NCBI RefSeq assembly: GCF_018069755.1
Contig: NZ_JAGQDE010000034.1
Location: forward strand, 1 to 36,912
DNA from: Ideonella aquatica
Lineage (GTDB): Bacteria; Pseudomonadota; Gammaproteobacteria; Burkholderiales; Burkholderiaceae_C
Direction of reading: 5' to 3'
DNA length: 36,912 bases
A model generated the notes under the pieces. That model was not told the DNA's origin and did not search any database. It worked only from the letters and a program-made list of their open reading frames with translations. Each line of letters opens with the position of its first letter. Position 1 is the stretch's first letter. The position numbers and the translations under genes are program-made. Positions 659-22,289 of this stretch are shown here, in pieces.

Positions 659-669
659 TCGGTTCCTCC

Positions 670-973
670 AGTCACCCCGTGTGGGTGCTGTACTTGTCGT
701 TGAAAAGGGCCTCATGAGCCCCGGTAACTGGCACTATAGCCGTCATCAGGGCGTCGGCGGCACAGGCAATCACCCTATAGAAATGCGCCGGTGACCGCCT
801 TGCATAGCTTAAGCAGGTTGCGTACCTGGGTCTGAGCCGAGTGGTTGCCAGTTTGTCAGTTTGGTGACTGGAGGCAAACTACAGCTTCTTGTCGGTGAAT
901 GAAGTAGCAATACTACATCGACTCAACCAGGCCGATCCTCCGGACTTGCCCCAGTACCAGGCGAAGCGCCCGG
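670..973. other. Intergenic region upstream of tonB
   Basis: About 300 bp without a convincing gene. A TATAGT hexamer on the minus strand (738-733) could be a -10 for tonB, but no good -35 sits at the right distance. No protein-like frame is seen. This is chromosomal sequence outside the left island boundary. Confidence 0.3.
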
Positions 974-1011
974 AAAAAAGCAAAGGGCTGCGACCGGATG
1001 GTGCAGCCCTT
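974..1011 (-). terminator. Intrinsic terminator, probably the displaced terminator of the tRNA-Ala gene
   Basis: Stem arms 983-991 (AAGGGCTGC) and 1003-1011 (GCAGCCCTT) close an 11-nt loop. On the minus strand the hairpin is followed by TTTGCTTTTTT (down to 974). It lies 49 bp beyond the left copy of the tRNA 3' half in the same orientation, so before insertion it would have followed the tRNA-Ala gene now at 25139-25214. The hairpin is seen; its former role is inferred. Confidence 0.75.
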
Positions 1012-1059
1012 GCGCTGACCGGGCACCTGGCGGTGATCGGTAGGGGTGTGGTGGCTCAG

Positions 1060-1104
1060 TGGTGGAGACGAGGAGGATCGAACTCCCGACCTTCGCATTG
1101 CGAA
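1060..1104 (-). repeat. Left attachment site: orphan 3' half of tRNA-Ala
   Basis: These 45 bp are identical to 25139-25183. They cover the tRNA from the anticodon loop through the T arm and acceptor strand to the encoded CCA. Beyond 1104 the sequence diverges and no tRNA 5' half follows. This is the classic footprint of tyrosine-recombinase integration into a tRNA gene: the incoming element rebuilds the gene's 3' end at one boundary and displaces the original 3' end to the other. Confidence 0.92.
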
Positions 1105-1157
1105 AGCCAATGTCACACCAATGATTGCAGGGCCTACAAATCAATCTGTGAATTGAT

Positions 1158-1174
1158 GCCACAATTTTGCCACA
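1158..1174 (+). other. Possible integrase arm-type sites, left end
   Basis: Two GCCACA hexamers start 11 bp apart (1158 and 1169), between the left att copy and the integrase gene. The right end of the island has the same pair with the same 11-bp spacing (25040 and 25051). A matching pair just inside both att copies is what arm-binding sites of a tyrosine recombinase could look like. Binding is inferred only. Confidence 0.35.
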
Positions 1175-1198
1175 CTCCAACAGAGCAGGCGAGGCATC

Positions 1199-2302
1199 GT
1201 GGCAGCGATCCGCAAACGAGGGCCGTACCAGTGGGAGGCCCAGATCCGCAGGCGCGGCTACCCCGCGCAGAGCAAGACCTTCAACACCAAGGCCGAGGCC
1301 GAGGCCTGGGCCAAGATGATCGAGTCCGAGATGGCTCGGGGCGTCTGGATCAGCCGTGGCGAGGCTGAGGCCACGCTGTTGCACGAGGCGCTGGCTCGCT
1401 ATGAGGCCGAAGTGGTGCCCCACAAGAAGGGTGCCGTGCAAGAGGCATCGGTGCTCAAAGCATGGTGCGCGCAGCCCCTGGCGAAGCGGCCACTCTCGGC
1501 CGTGCGCAGTTCCGACCTGGTCAAGCTGCGCGACGAGTGGCTGAAGACCTACCAACCGGCCACCGTGTTGCGCCGCCTGGCGGTGCTGTCGCACGTGTTC
1601 AGCGTGGCGCGCAAGGAATGGGGCATGGAGAGCCTGTCCAACCCCGTCGAGCTGGTGCGCAAGCCCCAGCCCAACAACGGCCGTACGCGGCGTTTGGCGG
1701 CCTCTGAAGGCCCCTCGGATGCAGCGGAAGGGGAAGGGCAGCGCCAGGCCAGCGATGGCGAGCTGGAGCGCGTTGTGGCGGCCAGCGGCTCGGCCGTGCT
1801 GCCGGCCATCGTCTGGCTGGCCGTGGAGACAGCCATGCGCCGTGGCGAGCTGGCCGAGCTGCGCTGGGAGCACGTCGACCTGGCCAGGCGCGTTGCGCAC
1901 CTGCCGGCGACGAAAAATGGCAGCTCGCGCGATGTGCCGTTGTCCTCTCGGGCGGTGGCGGTGTTGGCTGAGCTGAAGGCGGCCCGCGAGGCGGAGTCCG
2001 AGGATGTCGCAGCCGGGCGAGTGTTTCCTGTCCGCAGTGACGCCATCACGCGGGCGTTCGAGCGCGCGGTGCTGCGCGCTCGGGAGGCCTATGTCGACGA
2101 GTGCAAGGCGGCGAAGCGCAAGCCGGAGCCGGCCTTGCTCACGGACCTGCGCTTTCACGATCTTCGGCATGAGGCCACGTCGCGACTGGCCTCGATTTTT
2201 CCGATGCATGAGCTGACCAAGATCACCGGGCACAAGGACCCAAGGATGCTGATGCGGTACTACCACCCCAGAGCGGAGGACCTGGCAAAGCGCCTGGCTT
2301 AG
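1199..2302 (+). CDS. Tyrosine-type site-specific recombinase (island integrase)
   Basis: A 367-residue phage-integrase-family protein that would insert and excise the island at tRNA-Ala. The N-terminal half (about 1-165) holds arm- and core-binding domains; residues about 185-365 are the catalytic domain. Visible catalytic residues are R214 (AMRRGEL), K239 (ATKNG), H320 and R323 (FHDLRHEA), H345 (TGHKD) and the nucleophile, probably Y354 (LMRYYHP), so it appears intact. The start is a GTG at 1199; an ATG further in would lose the N-terminal domain. It lies 94 bp inside the left att copy, reads into the island and converges on the defence operon with only 16 bp between stop codons. Confidence 0.93.
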   Translation: MAAIRKRGPYQWEAQIRRRGYPAQSKTFNTKAEAEAWAKMIESEMARGVWISRGEAEATLLHEALARYEAEVVPHKKGAVQEASVLKAWCAQPLAKRPLSAVRSSDLVKLRDEWLKTYQPATVLRRLAVLSHVFSVARKEWGMESLSNPVELVRKPQPNNGRTRRLAASEGPSDAAEGEGQRQASDGELERVVAASGSAVLPAIVWLAVETAMRRGELAELRWEHVDLARRVAHLPATKNGSSRDVPLSSRAVAVLAELKAAREAESEDVAAGRVFPVRSDAITRAFERAVLRAREAYVDECKAAKRKPEPALLTDLRFHDLRHEATSRLASIFPMHELTKITGHKDPRMLMRYYHPRAEDLAKRLA

Positions 2303-2318
2303 GCGCCACCGGGAACCA

Positions 2319-3287
2319 TCAAGCGAGCGCCTTCGGTGTTCCCGCTCGCCCTTCGTAAGCGGCCAGGATGAACGGCTTGGCGGCGTCCAGATCTGCCAGT
2401 GAGGTTAGCGAAACCGCGACATCCCCTGTGCCCCAGTGCCCCTTCTGTGACACATCCTCGGCGTTGGGCAAGGCCTTCGTCACCGCGGCTGGCTCCAGGT
2501 GCAGGTAGAGCAACAGTCGGCCCTTTTGGGGCACCAGCGTGGCGAAGTTCTTCAAGCGCTTGAAAGCGACGTACAGGCGCAGCTCCTTGCGTTGCACGTC
2601 ATCGCCCAACGATAGGGTGTAGTCCTCCAGTGAGGCCAGCACGGCCAGCAGTGGCGCGGGCAAGGTGGCCAGCGTCTCTGCGTAGGTCTTGTCAGGGCCA
2701 ACGACCTTCTCCGTACCAGACTCGTTGGCGTCCTTGGCCGGCTTGGCGGCCTTGCCCGCCGCAGTAGGCTTGGGAGCCGAGGCCGAGGTGGCGTTGACCA
2801 GCTCGAACAGCAGCAGGTCGGTGCCAAACCGGCGGTAGCGGATCAGCTCAATGTTGCGGTCGATCTGCTGCACCGCGTGGCCGTCATACTTGGTGAAGTC
2901 CGCCGCGATGCACACCAGCCGCGGTCCACTCCAGTCGATGGCGTCCGCCGCTGCCGGGCCAAACTTCTCCAGCACCAGCAGCTTGAACTCGGCCTTGTGG
3001 TCCATCAGCCAGTCCAGGTAGAACAAGCCCTGGTTGATGACGTTCTCGCCGACTGAGCGCTTGTACTCCAGGATCACCGGGCAGTGGTTCTCGTCCAGCC
3101 CCAGGCTGTCGATGCGGCCACCATGGGTCTTGCCGGTCGAATACTCGGTGGCCAGGAAACGGGCTCCCAGCAGCGGCTCCAGGTTGGCCTCAATCAGCGA
3201 TTGCAAGGGCTTTTCCAGATCGGACGCCTCGCCCTTGAGTTCAGTGGCTTGGCCGTTGGCGAGGCGGAACAGTTGGATGTCGCTCAT
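2319..3287 (-). CDS. NucS/DUF91-like PD-(D/E)XK nuclease with C-terminal DUF5655 domain
   Basis: The start used is the ATG at 3287 (MSDIQLFRLANG), which has GAGGA 5 nt upstream; a longer frame exists but would overlap the preceding gene. Of 322 residues, roughly 20-150 look like a restriction-endonuclease fold: GGRIDSLGLD followed by ILEYKR gives a D...ExK pattern as in NucS/DUF91 nucleases. A low-complexity Ala/Lys linker (about 180-210) leads to a C-terminal region resembling DUF5655 (LSLGDDVQRKELRLYVAFKR). It is the last gene of the eight-gene minus-strand cluster, 7 bp after the previous stop. The nuclease fold is inferred from motifs; substrate and role within the restriction locus are unknown. 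Confidence 0.75.
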   Translation of the reverse strand: MSDIQLFRLANGQATELKGEASDLEKPLQSLIEANLEPLLGARFLATEYSTGKTHGGRIDSLGLDENHCPVILEYKRSVGENVINQGLFYLDWLMDHKAEFKLLVLEKFGPAAADAIDWSGPRLVCIAADFTKYDGHAVQQIDRNIELIRYRRFGTDLLLFELVNATSASAPKPTAAGKAAKPAKDANESGTEKVVGPDKTYAETLATLPAPLLAVLASLEDYTLSLGDDVQRKELRLYVAFKRLKNFATLVPQKGRLLLYLHLEPAAVTKALPNAEDVSQKGHWGTGDVAVSLTSLADLDAAKPFILAAYEGRAGTPKALA

Positions 3288-3294
3288 TGGGTCC

Positions 3295-4650
3295 TCACTG
3301 GATGCGTTTTCGCCTGTCCGCAGCGGTCTTTGCTCCGCTGCCCTTGATGACCGCGTACATTGCCCTTCGCCCATCCGCTTGGCCGGCCTTGATGACGGCT
3401 GAGATCAAAGCGTAGCCGCGCTGGTCACAGCCGATCCAGCCTTCGCGCGCCAGATCAACGAACTGGGTATTGTTGAGGTACCTCGGGCAATTGCTGTATC
3501 CGATGCGTTTGCCGCCGTTTGCCCCAATGGCTTCCGGTAACTCGAGGAATCTCTTGAGGTGGGAATGGCCGAGAGTTATGCCAGCGACCAACGCATCGTC
3601 CCTGGCGTCGGGGCTGGTGGTTTCGCAGAACTTGAAGTAGAAAGTCTCCTCACTCAGCCGCCAGTCTCTCATCGAAGTCGACGCAGGCATGGGTAGGAGT
3701 CTTATCGCATTCATCGCGGTGTCCATGGCCTTGATTTGTTTGCTGAGCTGGGGGTCGACTAAGTAAGACCAAGTCTTGCCATGATCGTCACTTTTGGGTT
3801 CCATGCATTTGTACTGCAGGAGCAGGTATGATTTGAAGTCTGCCAAGAAAATTAACAGGTCGATGCCGAGTACCGTCTCCAAGGGCTTCTTGTCGTACAC
3901 GTAAACGCGCACCTCGCGATCACCAGTGCCTTCGAAACGAGCTGCTTTGAAATCATCGAGTTTCAATAGGCCTTTGAAGACTCTCTGGTCTTGCCTGATC
4001 AGATCCTGTTCTTGCAAGGGCTCAGCATCCAACAGTTCCAAGGCCGAACTAGCTGCATCTATATGCGAAAGATCTGCCTTCCGCAAAATGGCCTTCCGAT
4101 TTAGTGATGCAATATCCAGTGCCAAACCGATTGCGTCACGCTGCTCGGTCAGACGACGAATTTTCTTGTCATTCCCAGCCAGATGGCGCTGCTTTTCTCG
4201 CATTGCAACCAAGGCATCAATTCGTTTGGCCAATGCGGGGCGAACCCGCTTGATCGCTTCCAGTACCAGCGGCCACTCAATAGATGGGATTCGCTTGAAC
4301 CTCTCAGCAGTGCAGAGCCGATCCACAGCAGGAAATTCATCTGCAATCTCTCCTGGTTTGATTGGGTCTTCGATGATCACCGGAGACCACATGCGCATTT
4401 TCAGCGTGCCAGTGCCGCCACTACCGTGCATCCGATCCATCAACACCAGGGCGCCTATGGTGAACTCCCCGGGTTCTAGTGAGAGTAGAGCGACTTCTCG
4501 TCGCTCGAATTTCCAGTCCATCGCTGAAAAGGACTCAGAAGCTTCGCCAGGGTTGTGGAGGCGTTCAGCGACCTTTTCCGTTCGCGCGGGCTCGAAGGCA
4601 AGGAAGTAACCAGAATAGCTAGTCCGTGATGCGTTGGGGTTACGTGCCAT
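3295..4650 (-). CDS. Unrecognised protein with a possible D...QxK nuclease core, in the defence operon
   Basis: The start used is the ATG at 4650 (MARNPNASRTSYSGYF), preceded by AGGAGG at ideal distance; the frame is open 26 codons further upstream but there overlaps the HNH gene. The 451-residue protein matches no family I can name. The middle (about 135-180) is charged and helical, perhaps a coiled coil. Around 255-285 the pattern ETVLGIDLLIFL...LLLQYKCME places E258, D264, Q279 and K281 as in Mrr-like nucleases of the PD-(D/E)XK superfamily that use QxK. The C-terminal third has YSNCPRYLNNTQFVDL and GWIGCDQRGYA motifs. The gene lies 16 bp after the HNH gene and 7 bp before the DUF5655 nuclease gene. 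The nuclease idea is an inference from one motif. Confidence 0.7.
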   Translation of the reverse strand: MARNPNASRTSYSGYFLAFEPARTEKVAERLHNPGEASESFSAMDWKFERREVALLSLEPGEFTIGALVLMDRMHGSGGTGTLKMRMWSPVIIEDPIKPGEIADEFPAVDRLCTAERFKRIPSIEWPLVLEAIKRVRPALAKRIDALVAMREKQRHLAGNDKKIRRLTEQRDAIGLALDIASLNRKAILRKADLSHIDAASSALELLDAEPLQEQDLIRQDQRVFKGLLKLDDFKAARFEGTGDREVRVYVYDKKPLETVLGIDLLIFLADFKSYLLLQYKCMEPKSDDHGKTWSYLVDPQLSKQIKAMDTAMNAIRLLPMPASTSMRDWRLSEETFYFKFCETTSPDARDDALVAGITLGHSHLKRFLELPEAIGANGGKRIGYSNCPRYLNNTQFVDLAREGWIGCDQRGYALISAVIKAGQADGRRAMYAVIKGSGAKTAADRRKRIQ

Positions 4651-4666
4651 GCCTTCCTCCTGGGAG

Positions 4667-5506
4667 CTATTGGTCTGCCTTGACAATGTCTTCGGGTTGA
4701 GCGCAGAACGCGCCCGCGCCCATGGCAAACATCTTTGATCTGGCTGCCCGTGCGTAGGGTGCGCTGGGAACCGTGGCCTCGCGCATTTGCTCCTGGAGCC
4801 TGTCTACAGCTGCCATGTCTGCCGCATTGCCGACGATATCCATGAGGTTCTTGTAATGGTTCTCTACGTCGCGCATCACCCGCTTGCGGGCGGTGATCAG
4901 GTTGCCCAGATTGAGACCATAGAGCTCGATGGATCTGGCAACGCGAAGCTGCTTAGGTGCACCAAGGCAGGTTCTGCTGGCGACGGCTCGGCCATCGTCA
5001 GGGTCGATGTCAATGAGTGCCACATCACCCCTCACCGTTGGGTCGAGCAGCACTGGCCTCTCTTGGTCGACACATCTGTCAACCCACGACGCGCACGGGC
5101 TGCCGTCCAACAACGGAAACCAGCTGCCCTTGCCTACCGTTTCTTCGGTGGCTTCGTCAGTGCTCAGCCTGTTTGACCTGCCCGCCGCGTACCGAAAGTT
5201 CGCGACTGAGAAGGCCAACCACGGGTAGCCATCGTCCTCTTTGGCATCGGCTCGCTTGGCCGCCTTCTTCGGCCGAAAGTGATCCACGTCAAAGAACGAC
5301 TGTGGGTCATTGCTCTCCGAGTACCAGCATTTTCCGTAGGACATCTTGGCCAGGTACCGAGCAAACGCACGCCAGACGTGAGCCTTCTTCTCGATGAACG
5401 CCTTTCTCTCGGCCTCTGGCTTGGCCTCCAACGCAGCCTGTGCTCTTGCCGCAACGTCAAGCACCTTCTGCGGGATCATGGTCGGGTCGCACCTCACATA
5501 GATCAA
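4667..5506 (-). CDS. HNH-type nuclease, PtuB-like, with most zinc-binding cysteines replaced
   Basis: A 279-residue protein using a TTG start at 5506, which overlaps the ATPase stop by 4 nt (TTGA). An ATG at 5479 (M10) is the alternative start. Recognisable elements of the HNH proteins that accompany retron/Septu ATPases are: GKCWYSES (C60), DVDHFRPKK with catalytic H76, GYPWLAF, RSNRLS with N112, WFPLLDG and PVLLDP. These relatives usually carry two CxxC pairs; here only C60 of the first pair remains, and serine or alanine fills the other positions, while the His and Asn of the HNH core are kept. It probably cleaves nucleic acid together with the ATPase encoded just upstream. The family is fairly clear; activity is inferred. 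Confidence 0.82.
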   Translation of the reverse strand: MIYVRCDPTMIPQKVLDVAARAQAALEAKPEAERKAFIEKKAHVWRAFARYLAKMSYGKCWYSESNDPQSFFDVDHFRPKKAAKRADAKEDDGYPWLAFSVANFRYAAGRSNRLSTDEATEETVGKGSWFPLLDGSPCASWVDRCVDQERPVLLDPTVRGDVALIDIDPDDGRAVASRTCLGAPKQLRVARSIELYGLNLGNLITARKRVMRDVENHYKNLMDIVGNAADMAAVDRLQEQMREATVPSAPYARAARSKMFAMGAGAFCAQPEDIVKADQ

Positions 5507-7113
5507 GGCTTGGCCCCTTCCTCGGTCAGCTTCCTGATCAACAGTTTCATCCCGGCTTGTCGCCGCTGAAGCTCGTCTGGCGTCAACGGTGGTCGGTCTG
5601 CATACCGGACGTCATGCCATGCGCGCAAGAAGTCCTGGTACAGGGGTTCGCGGTCTTCGTAGAGGAAGCCGAGTCGTGCGAGATCGTCATTGAGTTGAAT
5701 CAGGCGGCGCTCGTCGGCGTCAGTCCTCGTCGGGCTCTGTGCTAACAAGTTGCGGTCATCTATCAAGCGCTGGGTCTCGACGTCCAAGCTCGTTGGCATG
5801 CCGAATATCTCGGTGAGCGTGGCCGTAAAGCCCATGCCCTTCGGGTCTGCATACGGAGCGCCGGCCGTCACTCGCCCGTCCGCTTCCTGCGTGATCACCC
5901 GCACCTCATTGCGCGTCAGTGCTGAGATTGTCAGCGGGTTGTGGGAGGTCAGCACGATGTGGCAGTTGTCGGCGTCAGCGGCGATACCCGTCCAGTCCTG
6001 GATCAGCTTCAGGTAGCTGTGTTGCCAGTGCGGGTTGAGGTGGGTATCCGGCTCGTCGAGCAGGAAAAGCGCGCGTTGGCCGCTGGAGACACGGATCAGG
6101 CCCAGCACCATCAGCAGTTGGCGTTCGCCGTCGGAAAGATCGGCAAAGCCCACATCACCCGAAGCATCGTTGCTGCGAAGCACCCACACCAGCATGTCGC
6201 GGATGAGGTCCGAGATGTCCATGGCCTCCAGCGCATAGAACAGCTCTCGCTCGCTCTTGAAGTTCTTTGCGAATGCCTTCAGCGCGTCAGGCGAGCGCAG
6301 GTAGGCGGCGTATTGCGACTCGCTCTGCTGCTTGTCGCGGTAGTCGTCGATCGCGTTGCCCTGCAGGGCGAACGGGTAGAAGGCGGCGGCCTTGAACGCG
6401 TGGGCCGTGCGGCCTGCGGGGCCGGCGGCGCCCCACAGGTTCTCGGGCGAGCGGTCCACCCCCTTGCTCTTGCTCTTGGCAAACCAGGGCTGACGCAAGT
6501 GTGCCAGCAGCGAGTGAAAACCTTGGATGCCCAGCCGCTCGCCTAGCTCCCGCGTGACCCGTTCATCAGGGAAGGCGAACAACGAGATCAACGCCAGCAC
6601 GCCATGAATCGGCCGGCAATAGAACAGCCGCCGCTCGCTTTGCGCGGCGGTGCACAGCGCGGGGTCGTCTTCCAGCTTGATGGCATCGTAGTAGCGCCGC
6701 TGGTGCGCGTCGAACAGCGACTCCAGGCGACGGCTGCCGCCCGAGTAGTAGCCAAACACGAGATCGGGGAACCAGTGGGCTTTGTTGCGCTCGAACTCGG
6801 CGCGCGTCACCGCTGTGCCCTCCACCGCCAGCTCGGGCTCGCCAGGGCGGTTGCTCAGCGTGATATGCACAGGCTGGTTGACCAGGCTGTGTCTGTCCTG
6901 AGGGTTGATGCGGTAGTCCACCCTGTAACGGAACGGCGGTGCTTGGCGGCGCATGTCCACCCACCGAAATACATGCACCAGCGCCTCGATCAGGTTGGAC
7001 TTGCCCGCCCCGTTCTGGCCGATCAGAACCGTGGTGAGCTGGCGTTCATCAAAGTCCAGCGCCAAACCCTTTAGGTTCTTGAAGCCGTCGATGTAGACCC
7101 GATCAAGCCTCAT
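5503..7113 (-). CDS. ABC-type AAA ATPase (OLD/PtuA-like, restriction-associated)
   Basis: A 536-residue soluble ATPase of the RecF/SMC-like type (AAA_15/AAA_21). Visible motifs: N-terminal RVYIDGFKNL, Walker A GQNGAGKS (32-39), ABC signature LSDGERQ (326-332), Walker B ALFLLDEPD (348-356) and H-loop LTSHNPL (H391). There is no Toprim domain, which argues against a true OLD nuclease. Immediately following it is an HNH gene, the order of the anti-phage Septu pair PtuA-PtuB; related ATPases also occur beside restriction systems. The ATG at 7113 lies inside the hsdS 3' end (11-nt overlap). By analogy it would sense or hold nucleic acid and license the HNH nuclease. The identity of the ATPase is clear; the Septu-like role is inferred from gene order. 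Confidence 0.88.
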   Translation of the reverse strand: MRLDRVYIDGFKNLKGLALDFDERQLTTVLIGQNGAGKSNLIEALVHVFRWVDMRRQAPPFRYRVDYRINPQDRHSLVNQPVHITLSNRPGEPELAVEGTAVTRAEFERNKAHWFPDLVFGYYSGGSRRLESLFDAHQRRYYDAIKLEDDPALCTAAQSERRLFYCRPIHGVLALISLFAFPDERVTRELGERLGIQGFHSLLAHLRQPWFAKSKSKGVDRSPENLWGAAGPAGRTAHAFKAAAFYPFALQGNAIDDYRDKQQSESQYAAYLRSPDALKAFAKNFKSERELFYALEAMDISDLIRDMLVWVLRSNDASGDVGFADLSDGERQLLMVLGLIRVSSGQRALFLLDEPDTHLNPHWQHSYLKLIQDWTGIAADADNCHIVLTSHNPLTISALTRNEVRVITQEADGRVTAGAPYADPKGMGFTATLTEIFGMPTSLDVETQRLIDDRNLLAQSPTRTDADERRLIQLNDDLARLGFLYEDREPLYQDFLRAWHDVRYADRPPLTPDELQRRQAGMKLLIRKLTEEGAKP

Positions 7114-8821
7114 GGTGGGCAGGCTCCATCAGTGGGTCCAAGTCCTTCACATGGCCTTCGGCGATCTCCCAGGTGAGCTGCTTGTAGAAGTCGGCGACCG
7201 GCAGTTCGGAGGCCTCATACAAGGTCTTGGCGTCCACTGGTCGGCCCAGGCGGCGCAGGTGACCGGCGAGGTAAGGCAGGCCTTTTACGTCTTCGTCTTG
7301 GCGGCTTTTGGTGGGCATGGCTGTGCTTGAGGATGACTTGGACGGCAGAGTGCGCGCGGCGCGCGGGGCGCGGGCTTTGCGCGCTTTGGGTTCCGCATTT
7401 GCCTGATTGCGGGCTGTAGTGAGGCGAGCAAGCAGGGCGCTGGCTGGCTCGTCATTGGCATCTTGCGGTAGCAAGTCACCGCGGAAGGCCTTCTGCAGGA
7501 CCTGCGGAAGCAACCGCTGCGCACGGGCTCTTGAACCGTACCAGCGCGCTTCGATATGCTCTGCCAAGAAGAAGAGCTCATCAACTCGGCGCACAATCTC
7601 ATTCTGCTCAGTCAAAGACGGCAGGGGAATTTGAAGTGCACGTACATCGCCGATGTTGATTCCGCGGACGGCGACGCCACGCACAGCATTCGCCATACGT
7701 CGCTGCGCGTCGGGAGACAGCAACGCGTAGTAGACAAATCGAGCATTGAGGCGCGGGTTAATCGAGAGTCGTGCCGTGTCCTGCGTGATATTTGCGCCCT
7801 CAAGTGAAGGCGGAATCACAATCAGCCGGCCAACGCTGCCGCGGATGGATAACAGCAGGTCGCCTCCTATCAATCTGGCGCGTTTGAACTGAAGGTCGAT
7901 CGCCGGACTTGTACGTTTAATGGATTGCAGGTTCAGCTTGTTCCCGGGGAAATCCGCGACACGGATGTATGGAACCCCTTCGTCCAGTTCAGGTCCGGGT
8001 TTCAGAATGCCGTAGGTAATCGGTCGACCAGGGAGGCAGCAGTCACGCAGGGTGCTGATCTCCCAGCCACCTGGAAGTCGGGCAGAAGTGAGATCGTGGG
8101 CTTCTTGAGTTGGCTCAGATGCATTGCCGCGCTCATGCCCTCCGGCGGCCATGTGATCTGCATTCATCGCATGGACCAGCTCTGTTGTCGGTGGCAACGA
8201 ATCCTGTTCGTTCCGCCAGTCTTCGGTAAGACTACCGAAAGTCGCGGCGTCGAGCACCGCCTGCCGAAACCGCCTGAGCAGCCCCGGGATGGCATCGAGG
8301 TGATCGTTGCAGGCCTTGATGCGGGCCATCAAGGTATCGAGATGGTCGGCGATGCGGGTTTGCTCAGCAACCGGCGCAACAGGGACCGGATACACGGCCA
8401 CTCGTTTGGGCTGCGCCCGCGTGAGTGAGCCACCAACACCAGCTACTTCACTGCACAACAGATCTCTAAAGGCCAGGCTCTTGAAGTAGTAGTTCGCGAA
8501 CGCTGGCTGTACTGCTTCCGACCGAAATCCGATCCACTCCGACGACGCTATTTGCGGCTTGTCCGTCTTCGGCCCAACGGTCCAAACGCGATTGATGCGA
8601 GGGTTGATCTTGCAGATCAAAACGTCGCAGGGTGCGACGGTCTGCTTCGTTGAACCAATAGCGCTCCCGAGTGTTAGCTCTGGCCGTCCACTAGGGAAAC
8701 TGGGAACGCTGTACAGCTCAAAGACTTGGTCAGGCCGTGCAGACGGGTCAACGGAGCTGCTTGAGAACTGATTGAGTTCGCCAAAGGGCCGTACTGTCCA
8801 GCTATCTGGTAATTCACTCAT
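7103..8821 (-). CDS. hsdS: Type I restriction specificity subunit HsdS with extra C-terminal domain
   Basis: HsdS sets the DNA target of the HsdM/HsdR complex. Two target-recognition domains are separated and followed by helical conserved regions: first VAPVAEQTRIADHLDTLMAR (about 150-170), later PLPSLTEQNEIVRRVDELF (about 405-425) with LPQVLQKAFRGDLLPQD. After a basic, Ala/Ser-rich linker (about 470-505) comes a further segment of about 60 residues (GLPYLAGHLRRLGRPVDAKT onward) that ordinary HsdS proteins lack and that could be a small helical interaction domain. Start: the ATG at 8821 is preferred because GGAGG lies 9 nt upstream; another ATG at 8827 sits almost on the ribosome site. It overlaps the preceding stop by 8 nt and the ATPase start by 11 nt. 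The total of 572 residues is long for the family. Confidence 0.9.
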   Translation of the reverse strand: MSELPDSWTVRPFGELNQFSSSSVDPSARPDQVFELYSVPSFPSGRPELTLGSAIGSTKQTVAPCDVLICKINPRINRVWTVGPKTDKPQIASSEWIGFRSEAVQPAFANYYFKSLAFRDLLCSEVAGVGGSLTRAQPKRVAVYPVPVAPVAEQTRIADHLDTLMARIKACNDHLDAIPGLLRRFRQAVLDAATFGSLTEDWRNEQDSLPPTTELVHAMNADHMAAGGHERGNASEPTQEAHDLTSARLPGGWEISTLRDCCLPGRPITYGILKPGPELDEGVPYIRVADFPGNKLNLQSIKRTSPAIDLQFKRARLIGGDLLLSIRGSVGRLIVIPPSLEGANITQDTARLSINPRLNARFVYYALLSPDAQRRMANAVRGVAVRGINIGDVRALQIPLPSLTEQNEIVRRVDELFFLAEHIEARWYGSRARAQRLLPQVLQKAFRGDLLPQDANDEPASALLARLTTARNQANAEPKARKARAPRAARTLPSKSSSSTAMPTKSRQDEDVKGLPYLAGHLRRLGRPVDAKTLYEASELPVADFYKQLTWEIAEGHVKDLDPLMEPAHHEA

Positions 8822-9917
8822 CTGCATCCCCCTCCAACAACACCCCCCGCCTCGCTATCGTCTCCCTCGCCTCCACCAGCGCCTGATGCAGCCGCTGCTC
8901 GAGATCCGCCTTGGGCGGCAGCTCGGTCCAATACTCAGCCACGGTGATGCCGTCCTTGTGCATCTGCAGCAGCTCCACTTGCTCGCGGCTGGATTCGGCG
9001 CAGAGGATCAGGCCGATTGGCGCCTCTTCACCGGGCTGGCGCTCGTGCTTGTCCAGCCATTTCAGGTAAAGCTCCATCTGGCCCTTGTGCGCGGCCTTGA
9101 AGCGGCCGAGCTTGAGCTCGATGGCCACCAGGCGACGCAGGCGGCGGTGGAAGAAGAGCAGATCCAGGTAAAAGTCATCGCCATCGATGACCATGCGTTT
9201 TTGCCGCTCCACAAAGGCAAAGCCGCGGCCCAGCTCTAGGATGAAGGCCTCCAGTTGGCGCAGGATGGCGGCTTCGAGGTCGGCCTCGTCATAGCCTTGG
9301 CGCAGGCCCAGGAAGTCCAGGAAGTAAGGGTCCTTGAAGACTTGGGCCGGTGGCGTGAGGGTGAGCGCACTCGCGTTGGCACCGTTACCCGTGCTGGCCG
9401 TGGTCAGCGGTGCCGCGCCCAGCTGGGCGCTGGCAATCTGGCTGCGCTCGAAGGCCTTGCGGTCGATCTGGCGGCGTAGCTCGCGCACGCTCCAGGCTTG
9501 CTCGGAGCACTGCGCGGCGTAGAACTGCCGGGCGGCGGCGCTCTTGAGGGGCAGCAGGCCCAGGATGTGGCTCCAGCTCAATTGTCGTGACAGCGTCGCG
9601 ACAATCTCGACGGCGGGGAAGGCCTGGGCAAACTGGCGCATGCGCTGCAGGTTCTTGGCCTCAAAGCCGCGGCCGAACTCGCTGGCCAGCTGCGTGCCCA
9701 ACTCGTTGATGAGGCGCGCGCCGTAAGCGGCACGCTCGCCTTGCAAGAGCTCGGTGTGGATGCGCTGGCCCACGGTCCAGTACAGGCGGGTGAGCTCGGC
9801 GTTCACCGCGCCGGCCAGGCGCTGGCGGCTGGTGGCGATCAGCGTGCGCAACTCGGCGTGGAGGTCTACCGCCAGCAGCGCGCCGCCATTCGGCAGAGTG
9901 GGCTCTGGCTGGCTCAC
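8814..9917 (-). CDS. DUF1016/YhcG-type PD-(D/E)XK nuclease
   Basis: A 367-residue protein of the YhcG family. The N-terminal DUF1016 part (about 15-165) includes LYWTVGQRI, FGRGFEAKNLQRMRQFAQAF and LSWSHI. The C-terminal nuclease domain (about 190-345) has the D...ExK signature in DDFYLDLLFFHR (D252) and VAIELKLG (E267, K269). An Ala/Ser/Thr-rich linker separates them. The start is a GTG whose last two bases overlap the hsdM stop (GTGA, 4 nt). Its place between hsdM and hsdS is not part of canonical type I operons, though such genes are often seen inside restriction loci. It may add nuclease activity or control to the restriction complex; the target is unknown. Confidence 0.88.
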   Translation of the reverse strand: MSQPEPTLPNGGALLAVDLHAELRTLIATSRQRLAGAVNAELTRLYWTVGQRIHTELLQGERAAYGARLINELGTQLASEFGRGFEAKNLQRMRQFAQAFPAVEIVATLSRQLSWSHILGLLPLKSAAARQFYAAQCSEQAWSVRELRRQIDRKAFERSQIASAQLGAAPLTTASTGNGANASALTLTPPAQVFKDPYFLDFLGLRQGYDEADLEAAILRQLEAFILELGRGFAFVERQKRMVIDGDDFYLDLLFFHRRLRRLVAIELKLGRFKAAHKGQMELYLKWLDKHERQPGEEAPIGLILCAESSREQVELLQMHKDGITVAEYWTELPPKADLEQRLHQALVEARETIARRGVLLEGDADE

Positions 9918-11524
9918 GCGCCGGCCCCTTCTCGGGTATCGACATCGCCGGCCTCGTCGGGCAGCAGTTCGTCCAGTTCCACGTCGGGGTCTTCGCCCAG
10001 GGCTTCCACCAGGGCGCGCAGCTCCAGCAGGGCAGCGTTCATCTCGCGCATGGCCAGGCGGGCCAGCAAGGCGGGGTCTTCGCGCTGTTGTTGGTCGGCG
10101 TCGCCGCCATCGTCCTTGAGCCAGGCCAGGTCCAGGTTGTCGCCTCGATCGGCGATCTGCTGCCGGGTGAACTTGCGCCAGCGGCCGGTGTCGCCCGTGT
10201 CCACACGTTGGGCAAGGGCGGCAGGGCCGCCCTTGGGGTCTGGGCCGAAGACGTCTTCGAACTTGTCGCGCGGCACATCGGCGGGCGCGTCAGCGGGCGT
10301 GCGGAAGTAGTCGCGGGTGAATGGGGTGCGCTTGCCAAACTGCGGCATGTTGGCGCGCATGTCGTAGACCCACACTTCCTTGGTGTTGCTCTTGTCGCTG
10401 TCTTTGCCCCTTCCTTCGCCCTTGGCGAAGAACAGCACGTTGGTCTTCACGCCCTGGGCGTAGAAGATGCCGGTGGGCAGGCGCAGGATGGTATGGAGGT
10501 TGCACTTGTCCATCAGGTCGCGGCGGATGCTGGTGCCCACGTTGCTTTCGAAAAGCACGTTGTCGGGCAGCACCACGGCGGCACGGCCGCCGGGCGCCAG
10601 GTTGCGGTAGATGTGCTGTAGAAAGGCGAACTGCTTGTTGCTGGTCTCGTAGGTGAGGTCTTTGCGGGTGGGCAGGCCGCCGCCCTTCTTCGTGCCGAAG
10701 GGTGGGTTTGACAGGATGAGGGTGGCAGGTGGCAGCTGTGTGCCTTCGTCGCCCAGGGTGTCGCCATAGGCCACGCCGCCTTCAATGCCATGCAGCAGCA
10801 TGTTCATCAGCGCCAGGCGGTGGGTGTCTTGCACCAGCTCCATGCAGTAGAAAGTGGCGTGCCGATAGCGGCGTTGCGCAGCTTCGTCCAGGCTGTCGAA
10901 ATTGTTGTGGGCGCGCAGGTAGTTGTTGGCCGCAATGGGGAAGCCACAGGTGCCAGCTGCTGGGTCCTGGATCACGTCGCTGAGCTGTGGCTTCATCACG
11001 GCCACGATGCTGTCGATGAGGTGGCGCGGGGTGAAGTACTGACCGGCACCGCTCTTCTTCTCAGTGGCGTTGCGTTCCAGCAGGTTCTCGTACAGGTCGC
11101 CCAAGTCATCGCGCTGCACGCTGTACCAGTCCAGCGCGTCAATCTCCGTCACCAGCTTGCTGAGGGTGGCAGGTTTGGTGATGAAGGTGTTGGCGTTGGC
11201 GTAGATCGCTTGCACGGCGCCGTGGCCGTGCAAACCGTAGCTCAGCAGCATCTCTTTGTAGGTGTCCAACCGTTCTGGCGCCGAGGCGCTGAGCAGGTCG
11301 TCCCAGCGGGTACCGGGTTGCTCCACAGCGGGCTCGGATTTCCTGGGGCGGATCCACACCTTGAGCCGGTCTTCCTGGCCGGTCTCCTTCATCATCTTCA
11401 GGAAGAGCAGGTAGGTCAGCTCGCTGAGGTACTGGTGGTAGGTGACGCCGTCGTCACGCAACACATGGCACAGCGACCAGAGTTTGGCGCCAATGTCTTG
11501 GGCGGCCTGGGGGGAGGTGGACAT
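9914..11524 (-). CDS. hsdM: Type I restriction-modification methyltransferase subunit HsdM
   Basis: An N6-adenine DNA methyltransferase of 536 residues, the modification subunit that protects host DNA and forms the core of the type I complex. The N-terminal helical domain covers about 1-140. The catalytic domain carries QYFTP (162-166), SAM-binding motif I DPAAGTCGF (187-195) and catalytic motif IV NPPFG (273-277). The C-terminus is acidic. Its ATG lies 12 bp after the hsdR stop with only a weak ribosome site, suggesting coupled translation; its own stop overlaps the YhcG-type gene by 4 nt. All motifs look intact, so modification is probably functional. Confidence 0.96.
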   Translation of the reverse strand: MSTSPQAAQDIGAKLWSLCHVLRDDGVTYHQYLSELTYLLFLKMMKETGQEDRLKVWIRPRKSEPAVEQPGTRWDDLLSASAPERLDTYKEMLLSYGLHGHGAVQAIYANANTFITKPATLSKLVTEIDALDWYSVQRDDLGDLYENLLERNATEKKSGAGQYFTPRHLIDSIVAVMKPQLSDVIQDPAAGTCGFPIAANNYLRAHNNFDSLDEAAQRRYRHATFYCMELVQDTHRLALMNMLLHGIEGGVAYGDTLGDEGTQLPPATLILSNPPFGTKKGGGLPTRKDLTYETSNKQFAFLQHIYRNLAPGGRAAVVLPDNVLFESNVGTSIRRDLMDKCNLHTILRLPTGIFYAQGVKTNVLFFAKGEGRGKDSDKSNTKEVWVYDMRANMPQFGKRTPFTRDYFRTPADAPADVPRDKFEDVFGPDPKGGPAALAQRVDTGDTGRWRKFTRQQIADRGDNLDLAWLKDDGGDADQQQREDPALLARLAMREMNAALLELRALVEALGEDPDVELDELLPDEAGDVDTREGAGA

Positions 11525-11536
11525 CAGAAAACAGGA

Positions 11537-14500
11537 TCAGGCGCTTTGAGCAGGTGGTGCCCAGAGCGCATCATTGAAGGCGTCCAGCACCGGTTGGAGC
11601 TGGCCATTGAACACTTTATCCAAACGAGCGAACCCGCCGCCCTCTCGCTTGAAGAGCAGGTCTGGGTCGTCCAAGGCTTCGCGGTCAACAAGGCCGTTGG
11701 CCTTGGTCTGCGCGGCGATGCGCTTGAGCCAGTCGCGCTGCGGCGTGGTCCAAGGCTTGCCGCCAGGCGGCTGGGCCAGCAGGGTTTGCAGGGCATGATC
11801 GACCCGCTCACTGTAGGGCAGCAGGGCGTCGCCCAAGGCGGCTTGGCGAATGTAGCCGACGATGTGGGCGGCAATGTCCTGGTTGCTCAGTTCGCGCCAG
11901 GCGGTGGCCAAGCGGGCTTCGCTGAAGCCTGCTTTGTCCAGCGCCAAGGCCAGCTCTTTCAGCTGCTTGCGGGTGAGGTCGCGCGGCTTGGTCAGCACGG
12001 CCATCAGGGCAGGCAGCTCGTTGCTGTGGCTGTTAATGAAGGCCTTGAACTCGTCCAGGTAGTCCTGGGGCTTGCTGGCCTTGCCGTATCCACGGTCTGC
12101 ACGCAGAAACTCGTCGGGGTGGTCGGAGACATACATGGGCTGGCCAGCGGCCGCTGACTTGCGATCCAGGATCTCGGCCAACCCGGGGTTCTGGGTGAAC
12201 CAGCTGGCCACCTCGGACAGGCTCAAGGCCTTCAGCTGCTTGATGAAGGCATCCGGCGGCATGCCAGCCTGAGTTTCAAAGTCTTGGGCCGCCTGGCCTT
12301 TCAGGTGGCGCTTCTTGACCTGCAGCTTGGCCAGGAATTGCTCGCGCACCAGCTCGCGCGCGGCATCGTTGTCGACCTGGGTGAGTTCTTGTGCCAGCTG
12401 CGCGAAGCTCAATTTTGGGTTGACCACCACGGGCTTCATGTCGGTCATGTCGCCAATGGCCTCGAAGATGCGCACGGCGTCGAACACGCGGAAGCTGTCC
12501 TTGGCCTCGCCGTTGAAGCTGCACAGGCGGGTGGCACGGCCGAGCATCTGATCGAACAGGATGCGGCTGTTCACCTGGCGCAGGAACACCAGGTTGCAGA
12601 TCTCAGGCACATCCACCCCGGTGGTGAGCAGGTCCACCGTCACGGCCACATTGGGCAGGCGTTCGTTCTTGAAGCGGCGGATCAGCTCCAATGGCTTGTC
12701 GGCGTTGCCGGTGATCTTGATGACGGCGTCGTCTTCCACGCTGCCGTACTGGGCCTCTAGCGCCTCCTTGAGCACGTCGACCACCAGGTCGGCGTGGTCG
12801 CTGCTGACGCAGAAGATCAGGGTCTTGCGACGGCCGCTGGGGTCGATTTCTTGAGCCAGGTACCCGCAGATGGCCTCGTTGAAAGGGCGGGTGATCACCT
12901 TGCGGTTGAAGTCTTCAACCTGCAGCTTGATTTCGTCAGGCGCCTTGAACAGCTCGATCTGGCTGCGTTGCGCGTTGTAGACCTTGACCTCTTCGCCCAC
13001 CTTCCAGGTCATGCCGTTTTCGGTCAGCTGGGTCTTGATCTGGATGGGGGGCTCGTAGTCGACCAGGAAACCGTCGATCACCGCCTCACGGTAGCTGTAG
13101 TTGAAGACGGGCGGGCCAAAGATCTCGCTGGTGTGCAGGGCGGGGGTGGCGGTCAGACCGATCTTGACGGCGTCGAAATAGTCCAGCACGCGCCGGTACT
13201 TGGAGATGTAGTCGTCAAAGCCACGGAAGCTCAGTTCCGTGTCGGACATCTCTCGGTCCAAGGTGTAGCCGCGGTGGCATTCGTCGACCACGATGCAGTC
13301 GTACTGGTCGACAGTGGGCGGCGCTACGCCCTCAGCGGGCAGCAGCAGCCGGCGCATCATTCCTTGCACGGTGGCGATGTGGACGGCGGTGTCCGCCTCC
13401 GGGCTTTGGGCGTCCAGCTCCTTGATGCCGAAGGTCTCGGCAAAGGTCCGCAGGCGCTCCATGCGGGTGTCTTTGAAGGCGTTGGCTGCTTGTTCGCCCA
13501 GGGCGGACCGGTCCACCAGAAACAGGATGCGGCGGTATCGCTGCGCCTTGAGTAGCCGGTAGATGAGGGCAATGCAGGTCTTGGTCTTGCCGGTGCCAGT
13601 GGCCATCGCCAACAGGATGTCGCGCTGGCCCGCCGCGATGCATTCCTCGGTCTTGCGGATGGCTGCCTGCTGGTAGGGCCGCAAAGGGAAGCCGTAGTTG
13701 AACGGCGTGCCGCTCAGCTCGGCGTCGGCTTTGGCCTCATCGCGGCGGAGCAGGGCGGTCAGGCCCTCTGGGCTGTACCAACCATCAAGCGCCTGGCTGC
13801 GGTTGGCGGGGCGCCGAAGGTCGCAAAACCAGATGCCGCTCTTGGTGGCCAGCTGCCGCAGGTACGGCCGGCCATTGGTTGCAAAAACGAAGGGGATGCG
13901 GAACTGACCCTGGTCGCCCCAGTTCTGCGGGTGGAGCGACGTGTTCTCGCTGGGTGAGAACGTCCGGCTGTAGCGCTTGGCCTGCTGGATGTCGGCGGAA
14001 ACGTCCTTGGTTTCGCGCTTGGCCTCCACCACCGCCATGGGCACCAGGCCTTGGAACAGCACGTAGTCAGCCGAATAGCCTTCACAGGGCCATTCCGCGA
14101 TGGCGATGTTTCGGCCTCGCTCCGGGCGGGTGCCCTGGCTGTATCGCAGCACTTGCGAATCCGCCTCCCAGCCCGCTTGGCGTAGTTGCTGGTCGATGAT
14201 CCGGCGGGTTTCGGCTTCGTCCAGCTGAACCAGGCTGGCGGCCTGGTTCGCAGATGCGACAAACTTGCTGAAGTCGGCTTGGGGCGCTGCCGTGGCCTGG
14301 GCTTGCAGGCTGGCCAGTTGCTCGGCCAGCTTTGCCTTGTCCTGCTCGGTCTCGGTGGCGATTTGCTCCCAGAGCTGGCGTTCCTCGCTGACAGCCGAGA
14401 GTTGACTTCTTGCAGCCTTCAGCGCGTCCGACACCTTCTCGCCATTGGCCATGTGGTCGGCAACGGCTTGGCGCAGCGACGCCAACTCGCGCTTCAGGTC

Positions 14501-14941
14501 TGCGGATTCGTCTGCGGGCGGTGAAGGCGGGATGAACGGGCCAGAGCGATAGTCGGCTGCCTTAAAGGTACGGTGGAACCACAGGCTGAGTTGCCAGGAC
14601 AGCTTGAGCGTGGCCAGCGCCTTGGCATGGTCCCCCTCCAGCGCGTGGCTGGCGGCATTGCCGGTGACCCGAATCTGGTCGAACAACTGCCTGACCTCGC
14701 GCGGCAACAGGCCCTCGCCTTGCAGGCGGCGGATCAGGTCGTACTGGCTCTCTTCCTGAGAGACGTAGAGGCCACCACGAGCAGCGAGCGACTGGGCCAG
14801 CAATTCAGCGTGCTGCCGCAGCTTGAGCAAGCTGGTGTTGGGGTCTTCGGAGAAATAGCGCTCTGCCAGCGCCCCCAGGCGCCAAAGCTGCGGCTCGTAC
14901 GCGCGCAGCATGTCGAAATTCGAGCGTATCGCTTCTGGCAT
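11537..14941 (-). CDS. hsdR: Type I restriction endonuclease subunit HsdR (EcoEI-like)
   Basis: The motor and nuclease subunit, 1134 residues. Domains in order: an N-terminal DUF4145-like region (about 1-135), a helical region (about 145-215), the HsdR_N nuclease domain with D292 and E306-A-K308 (ADYVLF then VVEAKRE), a superfamily 2 helicase with Walker A ATGTGKT (447-453), DECH box (553-556) and GLTATPA, a C-terminal helicase domain with TTGVDVPEI and QMLGRATRL, and an EcoEI-type C-terminal domain. The ATG at 14941 follows GGGAGAGAG. It is the first gene of the eight-gene minus-strand cluster, and a 323-bp region with two palindromes lies upstream. Length and motifs are complete, so the subunit looks functional. 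Confidence 0.96.
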   Translation of the reverse strand: MPEAIRSNFDMLRAYEPQLWRLGALAERYFSEDPNTSLLKLRQHAELLAQSLAARGGLYVSQEESQYDLIRRLQGEGLLPREVRQLFDQIRVTGNAASHALEGDHAKALATLKLSWQLSLWFHRTFKAADYRSGPFIPPSPPADESADLKRELASLRQAVADHMANGEKVSDALKAARSQLSAVSEERQLWEQIATETEQDKAKLAEQLASLQAQATAAPQADFSKFVASANQAASLVQLDEAETRRIIDQQLRQAGWEADSQVLRYSQGTRPERGRNIAIAEWPCEGYSADYVLFQGLVPMAVVEAKRETKDVSADIQQAKRYSRTFSPSENTSLHPQNWGDQGQFRIPFVFATNGRPYLRQLATKSGIWFCDLRRPANRSQALDGWYSPEGLTALLRRDEAKADAELSGTPFNYGFPLRPYQQAAIRKTEECIAAGQRDILLAMATGTGKTKTCIALIYRLLKAQRYRRILFLVDRSALGEQAANAFKDTRMERLRTFAETFGIKELDAQSPEADTAVHIATVQGMMRRLLLPAEGVAPPTVDQYDCIVVDECHRGYTLDREMSDTELSFRGFDDYISKYRRVLDYFDAVKIGLTATPALHTSEIFGPPVFNYSYREAVIDGFLVDYEPPIQIKTQLTENGMTWKVGEEVKVYNAQRSQIELFKAPDEIKLQVEDFNRKVITRPFNEAICGYLAQEIDPSGRRKTLIFCVSSDHADLVVDVLKEALEAQYGSVEDDAVIKITGNADKPLELIRRFKNERLPNVAVTVDLLTTGVDVPEICNLVFLRQVNSRILFDQMLGRATRLCSFNGEAKDSFRVFDAVRIFEAIGDMTDMKPVVVNPKLSFAQLAQELTQVDNDAARELVREQFLAKLQVKKRHLKGQAAQDFETQAGMPPDAFIKQLKALSLSEVASWFTQNPGLAEILDRKSAAAGQPMYVSDHPDEFLRADRGYGKASKPQDYLDEFKAFINSHSNELPALMAVLTKPRDLTRKQLKELALALDKAGFSEARLATAWRELSNQDIAAHIVGYIRQAALGDALLPYSERVDHALQTLLAQPPGGKPWTTPQRDWLKRIAAQTKANGLVDREALDDPDLLFKREGGGFARLDKVFNGQLQPVLDAFNDALWAPPAQSA

Positions 14942-15111
14942 TCCGGCTCTCTCCCCTACACCCCAGCCGGATCGTACGTCAGCCAGGTGGTGGGGGACGG
15001 ACTCAGAAGCTCTCCGAGGAGAACGGAATCGAAGGCCGTGCGGTTAACGCGGGCTGGCGGCAGTCCGCTCGGATCTTGGCGGCGCCATGCCTGCTGACGA
15101 GGCTGCCGCCG

Positions 15112-15131
15112 ATTTTCGCGGACGCGAAAAT
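15112..15131. promoter_or_regulatory. Palindrome copy 1 (ATTTTCGCG arms)
   Basis: Arms ATTTTCGCG (15112-15120) and CGCGAAAAT (15123-15131) are separated by 2 bp. It is one of three copies of this palindrome in the island. It could be an operator for an island-encoded repressor, or a small dispersed repeat. Confidence 0.65.
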
Positions 15132-15176
15132 GTGCCGTGGCTGGCTGAAGCCGGGTTCAAGGTGCGCCGCGTTCCC

Positions 15177-15198
15177 GATTTTCGCGCCCGCGAAAATC
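15177..15198. promoter_or_regulatory. Palindrome copy 2 (GATTTTCGCG arms)
   Basis: Perfect 10-bp arms GATTTTCGCG (15177-15186) and CGCGAAAATC (15189-15198) with a 2-bp CC spacer. The core is the same as at 15112-15131 and 18021-18038. Confidence 0.65.
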
Positions 15199-15264
15199 AG
15201 CCGACCTGCGCCCCAGCGAGGGGATGCGCCTACGGCCTGCGCTGAAGAACTCCCGCGCGCTTTC

Positions 15265-15513
15265 TCAGGCCGCCTGCCGCCAGGCGCGCACCTGAGCCCC
15301 GTATTCCTCTCGTATGCGCGCAATCTCGGCTTCGTCCGTCAGCCGCAGCGCTCGCCGCTCGGTCTGCAGGCGGGCTAAGTCAGCTTCCAGCTCGGCGGCC
15401 CGCTCTGGGGCTGGCGAGCTGGTGTGCAGCTCGCTGATGCGAATGGCGATCAGGTGGCCAATGCACTCCCGTGCAGCCTCAAAGGCGATGGCTTGTTCCT
15501 GGGTCCATGGCAT
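15265..15513 (-). CDS. Small hypothetical protein, helical
   Basis: An 82-residue acidic, Ala/Glu/Arg-rich protein, predicted to be almost entirely helical, with a possible coiled coil at about 37-70 (ERAAELEADLARLQTERR). No signal peptide or membrane segment is seen. The ATG at 15513 lies 9 bp after the lipoprotein stop, so the two genes are probably co-transcribed. I do not recognise the family; the setting suggests a plasmid or conjugation accessory protein. Confidence 0.6.
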   Translation of the reverse strand: MPWTQEQAIAFEAARECIGHLIAIRISELHTSSPAPERAAELEADLARLQTERRALRLTDEAEIARIREEYGAQVRAWRQAA

Positions 15514-18010: not shown

Positions 18011-18020
18011 CTGGCCAAGA

Positions 18021-18038
18021 TTTTCGCGCCCGCGAAAA
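18021..18038. promoter_or_regulatory. Palindrome copy 3 (TTTTCGCG arms) between virB6 and virB5
   Basis: Arms TTTTCGCG (18021-18028) and CGCGAAAA (18031-18038) with a 2-bp CC spacer, 11 bp after the virB6 stop. The core and spacer match the copy at 15177-15198. It lies inside the transfer transcription unit and may regulate virB5. Confidence 0.6.
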
Positions 18039-18084
18039 AGCGCTGGGCGACCTGAGCAACCGCAACCCCAAGGAGCCTCCATTC

Positions 18085-22094: not shown

Positions 22095-22289
22095 TGCCTG
22101 CCCGAGAAGCAAGATTTGACTCTAATTTAGGTTTGCGCAAGATTCGGCCTCGAATGGCAGTGCGCTGAACCGATTTGCATTTGATGCGCTCGTTCGCAAA
22201 TTCGCAGCCTTTGCACGCCTCAGGGCTGCAGAATTGAGGGTGGCCTGGCTCATCTGCCTTGCAGCAGAGGCACTCATTTCATCACTGCG

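Follow-up and report, generated by a model that had tools for sequence, protein, structure and literature searches.

The window analysed here is the whole of a 36,912-nucleotide (nt) stretch of Ideonella aquatica (contig NZ_JAGQDE010000034.1), and its main subject is a defence operon of eight collinear open reading frames (ORFs), all on the minus strand, which span positions 2319-14941 in the order hsdR, hsdM, yhcG, hsdS, ptuA-like, ptuB-like, gene 7 and gene 8. Families were assigned to the ORFs by Pfam, PADLOC and NCBIfam profile scans. A sequence-only reading of this DNA had listed the same eight genes, and ORF inspection together with the family searches bears it out. The operon joins an EcoKI-like type I restriction-modification (R-M) system to an ATPase-HNH pair of the Septu type, and we consider it moderately probable that the specificity subunit HsdS tethers this pair as an effector, much as EcoprrI holds PrrC, with swappable nuclease modules added. 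The features are as follows.

11537-14941, minus strand: hsdR, EcoKI-like type I restriction subunit, 1134 amino acids (aa); HSDR_N, ResIII and EcoEI_R_C domains, NF008521
9914-11524, minus strand: hsdM, N6-adenine methyltransferase (N6_Mtase), 536 aa, NPPFG motif
8814-9917, minus strand: yhcG, YhcG/DUF1016 PD-(D/E)XK nuclease family; DUF1016_N and YhcG_C, PADLOC PDC-S02
7103-8827, minus strand: hsdS, specificity subunit with an added C-terminal domain, 574 aa; Methylase_S
7106-7375, minus strand: C-terminal appendix of HsdS, residues 485-574, proposed docking tail for PtuA; tail hidden Markov models (HMMs) and structure model
5503-7113, minus strand: PtuA-like ABC/AAA ATPase, 536 aa; PADLOC PtuA1, Walker A GQNGAGKSN at ~6994-7023
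4667-5506, minus strand: PtuB-like HNH protein, 279 aa, TTG start; PADLOC PtuB1, conserved CWYxE...DHFRPK...N..N at ~5171-5329
3295-4650, minus strand: gene 7, PD-(D/E)XK-like family, 451 aa; E258, D264 and Q279-Y-K281 at ~3808-3879
2319-3287, minus strand: gene 8, weakly NucS-like N-terminal part and DUF5655, 322 aa; PADLOC candidate PDC-S18
1199-2302, plus strand: tyrosine integrase, convergent with the operon, in a mobile-element context; Pfam scan

The gaps and overlaps given for the junctions in the earlier reading were also found. A gap of 12 nt separates hsdR from hsdM, after which hsdM and yhcG overlap by 4 nt, yhcG and hsdS by 8 or 14 nt (set by which of two ATGs begins hsdS), hsdS and ptuA by 11 nt, and ptuA and ptuB by 4 nt. 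Gaps of 16 nt and 7 nt precede gene 7 and gene 8, respectively, whose starts (4650 and 3287) were placed from the sequence. No sigma-70 site was found in 2200-15400 by a simple consensus scan, which says little, and a terminator scan was likewise uninformative.

By its sequence matches, the R-M backbone is EcoKI-like, type IA as named in PMC3874165, because HsdR passes the NCBIfam model NF008521 (1540.7 bits, cut-off 729), the best solved-structure match of HsdS is the EcoKI HsdS 2y7c (1.3e-30), and 331 bases of hsdM match hsdM of E. coli K-12 at 76%. A type IB assignment was rejected for the same reason. HsdR contains HSDR_N nuclease and ResIII helicase domains, and HsdM matches N6_Mtase in Pfam (E 1.5e-68). 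The structure model of HsdS has a recognition-spacer-recognition-spacer layout with two helical spacers (long helices at residues 153-197 and 405-448), and the body of the protein matches EcoKI and other solved HsdS in a PDB sequence search and in Foldseek; Pfam matches the second recognition domain only.

The two genes following hsdS would be called Septu by the PADLOC models (PtuA1, 565.9 bits; PtuB1, 297.7 bits), yet they lie far below the NCBIfam cut-offs, with 64.5 against 500 for PtuA and 17.5 against 150 for PtuB, whose HNH positions are conserved. Relatives of PtuA were collected from the window's order, a phylum sample, a class sample, another order, plasmids, viral contigs and E. coli (three of eight matches examined in the last). 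They comprise 20 loci of the PtuA subfamily, namely the window, L020-L028, L036-L042 and L054-L056; 18 are assessable, L036 having been dropped at a contig edge and L038 as a duplicate of L037. Also outside the 18 are more distant ATPases (L043, L044, L045, L052, L053 and L061) and short partial matches (L046-L051). All loci were found by their likeness to a single protein or its profile; they are not independent phylogenetically, and clusters were therefore used for the tail test described below. Throughout, an absent hsdR or ptuA is one that was not detected within the sequence stretch examined.

In all 18 assessable loci, hsdS lies upstream of ptuA, and ptuB comes next. The genes hsdS and ptuA abut in 17 of them, with a gap of at most 22 nt or an overlap, while one gene stands between the two in L021. 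Plasmid searches with ptuA by tblastn returned the same five records at 1e-60 and at 1e-15, all hsdS-linked. Among the 18 loci there is no self-standing ptuAB, and neither ptuA alone nor gene 7 found a relative in scans of viral contigs. When loci were drawn with the window hsdM, none of the 26 had the window type of ptuA (hsdS was undetected or contig-cut in seven); thus, ptuA comes with hsdS, but most hsdS genes have no ptuA. The recurring core is hsdS-ptuA-ptuB.

Hence the ATPase-HNH pair is no chance neighbour of the hsd genes, as had been proposed. The order R-M-yhcG-S-ptuA-ptuB (R, M and S denoting the hsd genes) is repeated exactly in L022, which belongs to the window's order, Burkholderiales, and is accompanied by one extra gene in L021; L020 has the same order, with a yhcG match confined to residues 18-162 in a 254-aa ORF. 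HsdR and HsdM of L020-L022 are ~29% identical to those of the window over the matched part, and these loci are therefore not copies of one recently spread operon. Elsewhere, with A and B for ptuA and ptuB, the orders are S-A-B-M (L023, L025, L041), R-S-A-B-M (L037, L039), M-S-A-B (L024, L026, L028, L040, L054-L056) and R-M-S-A-B (L042, and L027 with an Abi gene between R and M). The further proposal of a full, fixed eight-gene system is rejected, only the window (1/18) having all eight genes. That all eight products form one physical machine, a notion which eight tightly packed collinear genes might inspire, is very improbable given this count and the occurrence of genes 7 and 8 as a pair of their own or without either neighbour.

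The HsdS encoded beside this PtuA has, as judged from sequence comparison, an extra C-terminal domain of ~60 residues, which is new here. The 18 ptuA-linked HsdS proteins are 524-763 aa long (the value of 763 may include a wrong start), and the 24 controls, for which no ptuA-like neighbour was detected, are 353-557 aa long, some of them possibly being incomplete. The extra length is C-terminal, beyond the (N/D)EPAS-LL motif at which sampled EcoKI-family HsdS end: where the motif was found, it is followed by 94-111 residues in linked proteins (10 of 18) and by 20-48 in controls (6 of 24). The last ~60 residues can be aligned across the linked set. HMMs built with one cluster left out at a time recovered the tail, at the extreme C-terminus, in eight of nine clusters (17/18 proteins) with 5.1-53.4 bits, while no other HsdS (n=29) scored above 2.2 bits in any round. 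The tail is present in none of the 24 control HsdS (Fisher p 6.5e-7 on clusters). An HMM trained on all 18 had no match at E <1 among the 19 HsdS present in the hsdM-drawn sample, where L063 is contig-cut and six loci have no detected HsdS, and a 72-residue tail query found two plasmids only, both already ptuA-linked. The appendix of the window HsdS is predicted to consist of a low-confidence linker (482-517) and a small three-helix domain at ~518-562, with helices at 520-527, 533-540 and 544-556 and a predicted local distance difference test (pLDDT) score of ~66-78. Foldseek rows of ~53-63 columns (AspA, Lrp-type regulators) had E >1 and were not used.

The operon might also be an assembly of independent defence modules recombined into a type I hotspot, in which the coupling would be transcriptional and translational only and the tail would simply lie in the same block. 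Genes 7, 8 and YhcG are indeed exchangeable, and published work already describes unrelated defence systems lodged inside type I operons (TgvAB, PMC11411939; DarTG2, PMC12255303). We nevertheless regard such an origin as clearly unlikely: none of the 18 assessable loci has this PtuA subfamily away from hsdS, and the tail persists even where PtuA, so far as measured, is only ~31-35% identical to that of the window.

A close relative of the operon carries a different tail and a different ATPase. In this sister locus, L061, HsdR, HsdM and gene 8 are 69%, 82% and 72% identical to their window counterparts, respectively, and HsdS is alignable to the window protein over residues 4-484, the tail beyond being unrelated. 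The ATPase shows 31% identity to the window PtuA over residues 317-453 only, and the gene after it is a different one, of 357 aa; gene 7 and yhcG were not detected. The ATPases of L045 and L053 pass the cut-off of 300 of TIGR04435, in a scan that covered these two proteins, and the HsdS proteins of L044, L045, L053 and L061 share, by eye, a tail pattern of their own. The L061 ATPase is provisionally placed with the TIGR04435 type because the tail of its HsdS resembles the tails of L045 and L053. Tail and ATPase apparently changing together on a near-constant backbone are the strongest hint of a physical link.

As a separate observation, the segment L061:319-5229 contains the other ATPase, the unmatched 357-aa gene, gene 8 and a Macro-domain gene (319-1527), ending the same EcoKI-like backbone.

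Under the reading we lean towards, in which HsdS tethers PtuAB, the HsdM2S complex would read methylation at its target, with HsdR acting as the ordinary restriction effector. The C-terminal domain of HsdS, on its flexible linker, would dock PtuA and hold the PtuAB complex on the R-M enzyme, and M2S would be the sensor serving HsdR and PtuAB alike. The trigger could be foreign DNA left uncleared by HsdR, or disabling of the enzyme by a phage anti-restriction protein; PtuAB would then be released or switched on, and the HNH nuclease PtuB would cut DNA or tRNA and so end phage growth at a cost to the cell, in the way that PrrC acts for EcoprrI. We infer the physical docking, the trigger and the substrate in this scheme. 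The precedents come from passages in the literature: the type I enzyme of EcoprrI keeps PrrC, a product of the same operon, sequestered until T4 infection releases it (PMC3874165); PtuAB of retron Eco7 (PMC11555353) and of Septu EcB88 (PMC13096335) cleave tRNA-Tyr; and another Septu cleaves nicked phage DNA, as cited in PMC11555353.

The distribution of hsdR invites a different division of labour. The gene is present in the window and seven other loci, and none was found by blastp in the flanks examined of the remaining 10 of 18 (L023-L026, L028, L040, L041, L054-L056). Eight of these ten (L023, L025, L026, L028, L040, L054-L056) are flanked by roughly 3-9 kb on either side, while the upstream flank is short in L024 and L041; some of the large unlabelled ORFs at the hsdR-less loci were checked. 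Here, PtuAB could be a direct effector of HsdMS: M2S would find unmodified sites and hand the DNA to PtuA-PtuB for cutting, in parallel to HsdR or instead of it. This proposal draws on the eight well-flanked loci with hsdM, hsdS, ptuA and ptuB and no detected hsdR, on the two further loci with short flanks, and on the tail, which was recovered in 17 of 18 loci, including all ten hsdR-less ones. The hsdR-less loci favour it over a guard function at those loci. Two effectors would, however, be redundant in the window and the seven other loci that carry hsdR, and HsdR may be encoded elsewhere in the hsdR-less genomes; overall we rate the direct-effector proposal as rather unlikely.

Three of the hsdR-less loci, L054, L055 and L056, lie on E. 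coli chromosomes, where hsdM-hsdS-ptuA-ptuB encodes a tailed HsdS near a tyrosine integrase. They are accessible hosts for testing the system.

Several points weigh against tethering of PtuAB by HsdS. Guarding of HsdR is not a general role, because hsdR is undetected in 10 of the 18 loci. The leave-cluster-out HMM missed the tail of L027 and recovered only weakly both the cluster of L020/L021/L022/L040/L042 (5.1-12.0 bits; 5.1-7.9 for L020-L022 and L040) and the window tail (8.4 bits), and left-out sequences had been aligned jointly with the training ones before the split, which favours recovery somewhat. The HsdS model is of moderate confidence (mean pLDDT 62.7). The tail may instead be a DNA-binding element, or it may be no more than a passenger in a recombination block shared with ptuA, and one such block carrying both tail and ATPase could explain L061. 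In L052 a more distant ATPase follows an hsdS whose product lacks such a tail, a case that argues against any universal rule.

Like EcoprrI-PrrC, the window operon has a gene for an ABC-type ATPase effector inside an hsd operon, and tRNA cleavage is published for the PtuAB family. Unlike that system, its ATPase and nuclease are two proteins, the nuclease is of the HNH type and the proposed tether is the HsdS tail; moreover, EcoprrI is type IC in passages of PMC3874165, while the window is EcoKI-like. Septu, including the effectors of retron Ec78/Eco7, shares the ATPase and HNH pair with matches to PADLOC PtuA1/PtuB1, and differs in the NCBIfam scores, in the constant position of the pair after hsdS and in the lack of a reverse transcriptase in the window operon. 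TgvAB and DarTG2 likewise place a second defence system between hsd genes, with different effectors and, in the passages of PMC11411939 and PMC12255303 concerned, no mention of an HsdS adaptor; PMC12255303 also mentions Septu in Hma. NCBI already labels a related ATPase, TIGR04435, as 'restriction system-associated AAA family ATPase'. Such ATPases follow hsdS in L045 and L053, with a different HsdS tail and a different, weakly HNH-like partner protein, and the window PtuA scores 127 against the cut-off of 300. MADS (methylation-associated defence) also combines M, S and AAA ATPase genes, and membership was rejected on the curated models MAD2, MAD3 and MAD5 (HsdM 76.3/720, PtuA 19.4/420, HsdS 35.5/400). 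Searches of the open PMC literature, which did not extend to most subscription papers and preprints, found neither a Septu subfamily linked to HsdS nor an adaptor tail on HsdS described in the passages concerned.

These comparisons suggest a wider class of type I-like systems, for which we see the case as evenly balanced, in which a C-terminal adaptor of HsdS would recruit an exchangeable ATPase-HNH effector (PtuAB or a TIGR04435 ATPase with its partner), tail and effector would be swapped together, and the effector would be able to replace HsdR. To our knowledge, it is unclear how Septu-type ATPase-nucleases sense infection, and a subfamily hard-wired via a small domain to a sequence-specific, methylation-reading subunit would offer a directly testable link from sensor to effector. 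If true, this would generalise the case of PrrC and EcoprrI, and one recognition module could drive interchangeable anti-phage weapons. The rule on offer, that the type of HsdS tail predicts the type of effector, may aid in finding more such systems during R-M annotation.

The remaining genes would be further nuclease modules exchanged at the locus, roles that for YhcG, gene 7 and gene 8 we infer from their families and distribution. L027 has another PDC-S02 protein after ptuB, L020 has a PDC-S11/NucS_C protein, and gene 8 (64% identical) follows hsdM in L037; therefore, the place after the core collects different nucleases. Of the last four genes of the operon, ptuA and ptuB recur beside hsdS, and genes 7 and 8 also occur without hsd. 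Gene 7 accompanies ptuA in one of 18 loci and gene 8 in two (the window and L037).

Gene 7 is matched by no Pfam, NCBIfam or PADLOC model at E 0.01. The D...QxK motif noted earlier in it is real, being invariant in all 16 aligned rows, and the protein and its 15 homologues (~25-71% identical) keep E214, D221, E258, G262, D264, Q279-Y280-K281, R331 and K340; L005/L015 (one broken copy) and L016 (a fragment) were left out of this alignment. The pattern fits a PD-(D/E)XK nuclease in which Q replaces E, as in Mrr-type enzymes. The structure model is weak, with a mean pLDDT of 44.3 and values <50 over residues 156-451, including the motif part. Of 399 genomes searched in the order, seven contain gene 7 matches, a count that includes its own genome and fragments. 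Genes 7 and 8 form a pair without hsd genes in L001 and L002; L003 has hsdS-gene7-gene8 with no ptuAB, gene 7 follows hsdM-S-R in L004, and a broken copy lies beside an opposed hsdS in L005 (same contig as L015). No hsd match was found by blastp at the gene 7 loci L014 and L016-L019, and none of the gene 7 plasmid records examined (seven of eight) has an annotated hsdR, hsdM or hsdS beside the gene. Three plasmids with distant homologues (L007, L010, L013) have an AAA or ATP-binding gene next to gene 7, with a UvrD-type helicase near in two, and a NERD-UvrD helicase gene stands before gene 7 in L001. Several ATPase systems may have gene 7 as their nuclease.

Gene 8 contains DUF5655, scores 450.5 bits with PADLOC PDC-S18, shows weak NucS similarity and had no match in a PDB sequence search. 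It is hsd-linked in the window, L003, L029, L030, L031, L037 and L061, and occurs without detected hsd genes in L001, L002, L032-L035, L059 and L060; seven of 13 plasmid records were examined, L030 and L035, whose records lack annotation, were judged by their ORFs, and L032 starts at the record start. Neither hsd genes nor ptuAB accompany it in L033 (one Staphylococcus plasmid examined) or in the phage-like contigs L059 and L060. In these two contigs, a single homologue (49% identical) at ~10001 is opposed to genes that look phage-structural by eye, and it resembles phage-borne cargo.

The operon region is probably an integrative conjugative element, because a convergent tyrosine integrase adjoins it and TrbL/VirB6 and a type IV secretion system (T4SS)-family gene lie nearby (16958-18804, plus strand). 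Beyond these, a 978-aa protein with a membrane-like N-terminus and no Pfam match is encoded at 19176-22112 (minus strand), within a stretch of lower guanine-cytosine content (44-52%); its GGGIRA and GASLG motifs are what we take to be patatin-like.

Among the ptuAB-linked loci, L042 encodes at 8-3730 a 1240-aa protein with a reverse-transcriptase domain (RVT_1), immediately before hsdR of its R-M-S-ptuA-ptuB locus. Fic genes lie near L025, L026, L054 and L056, and an FRG-domain gene precedes hsdS in L025.

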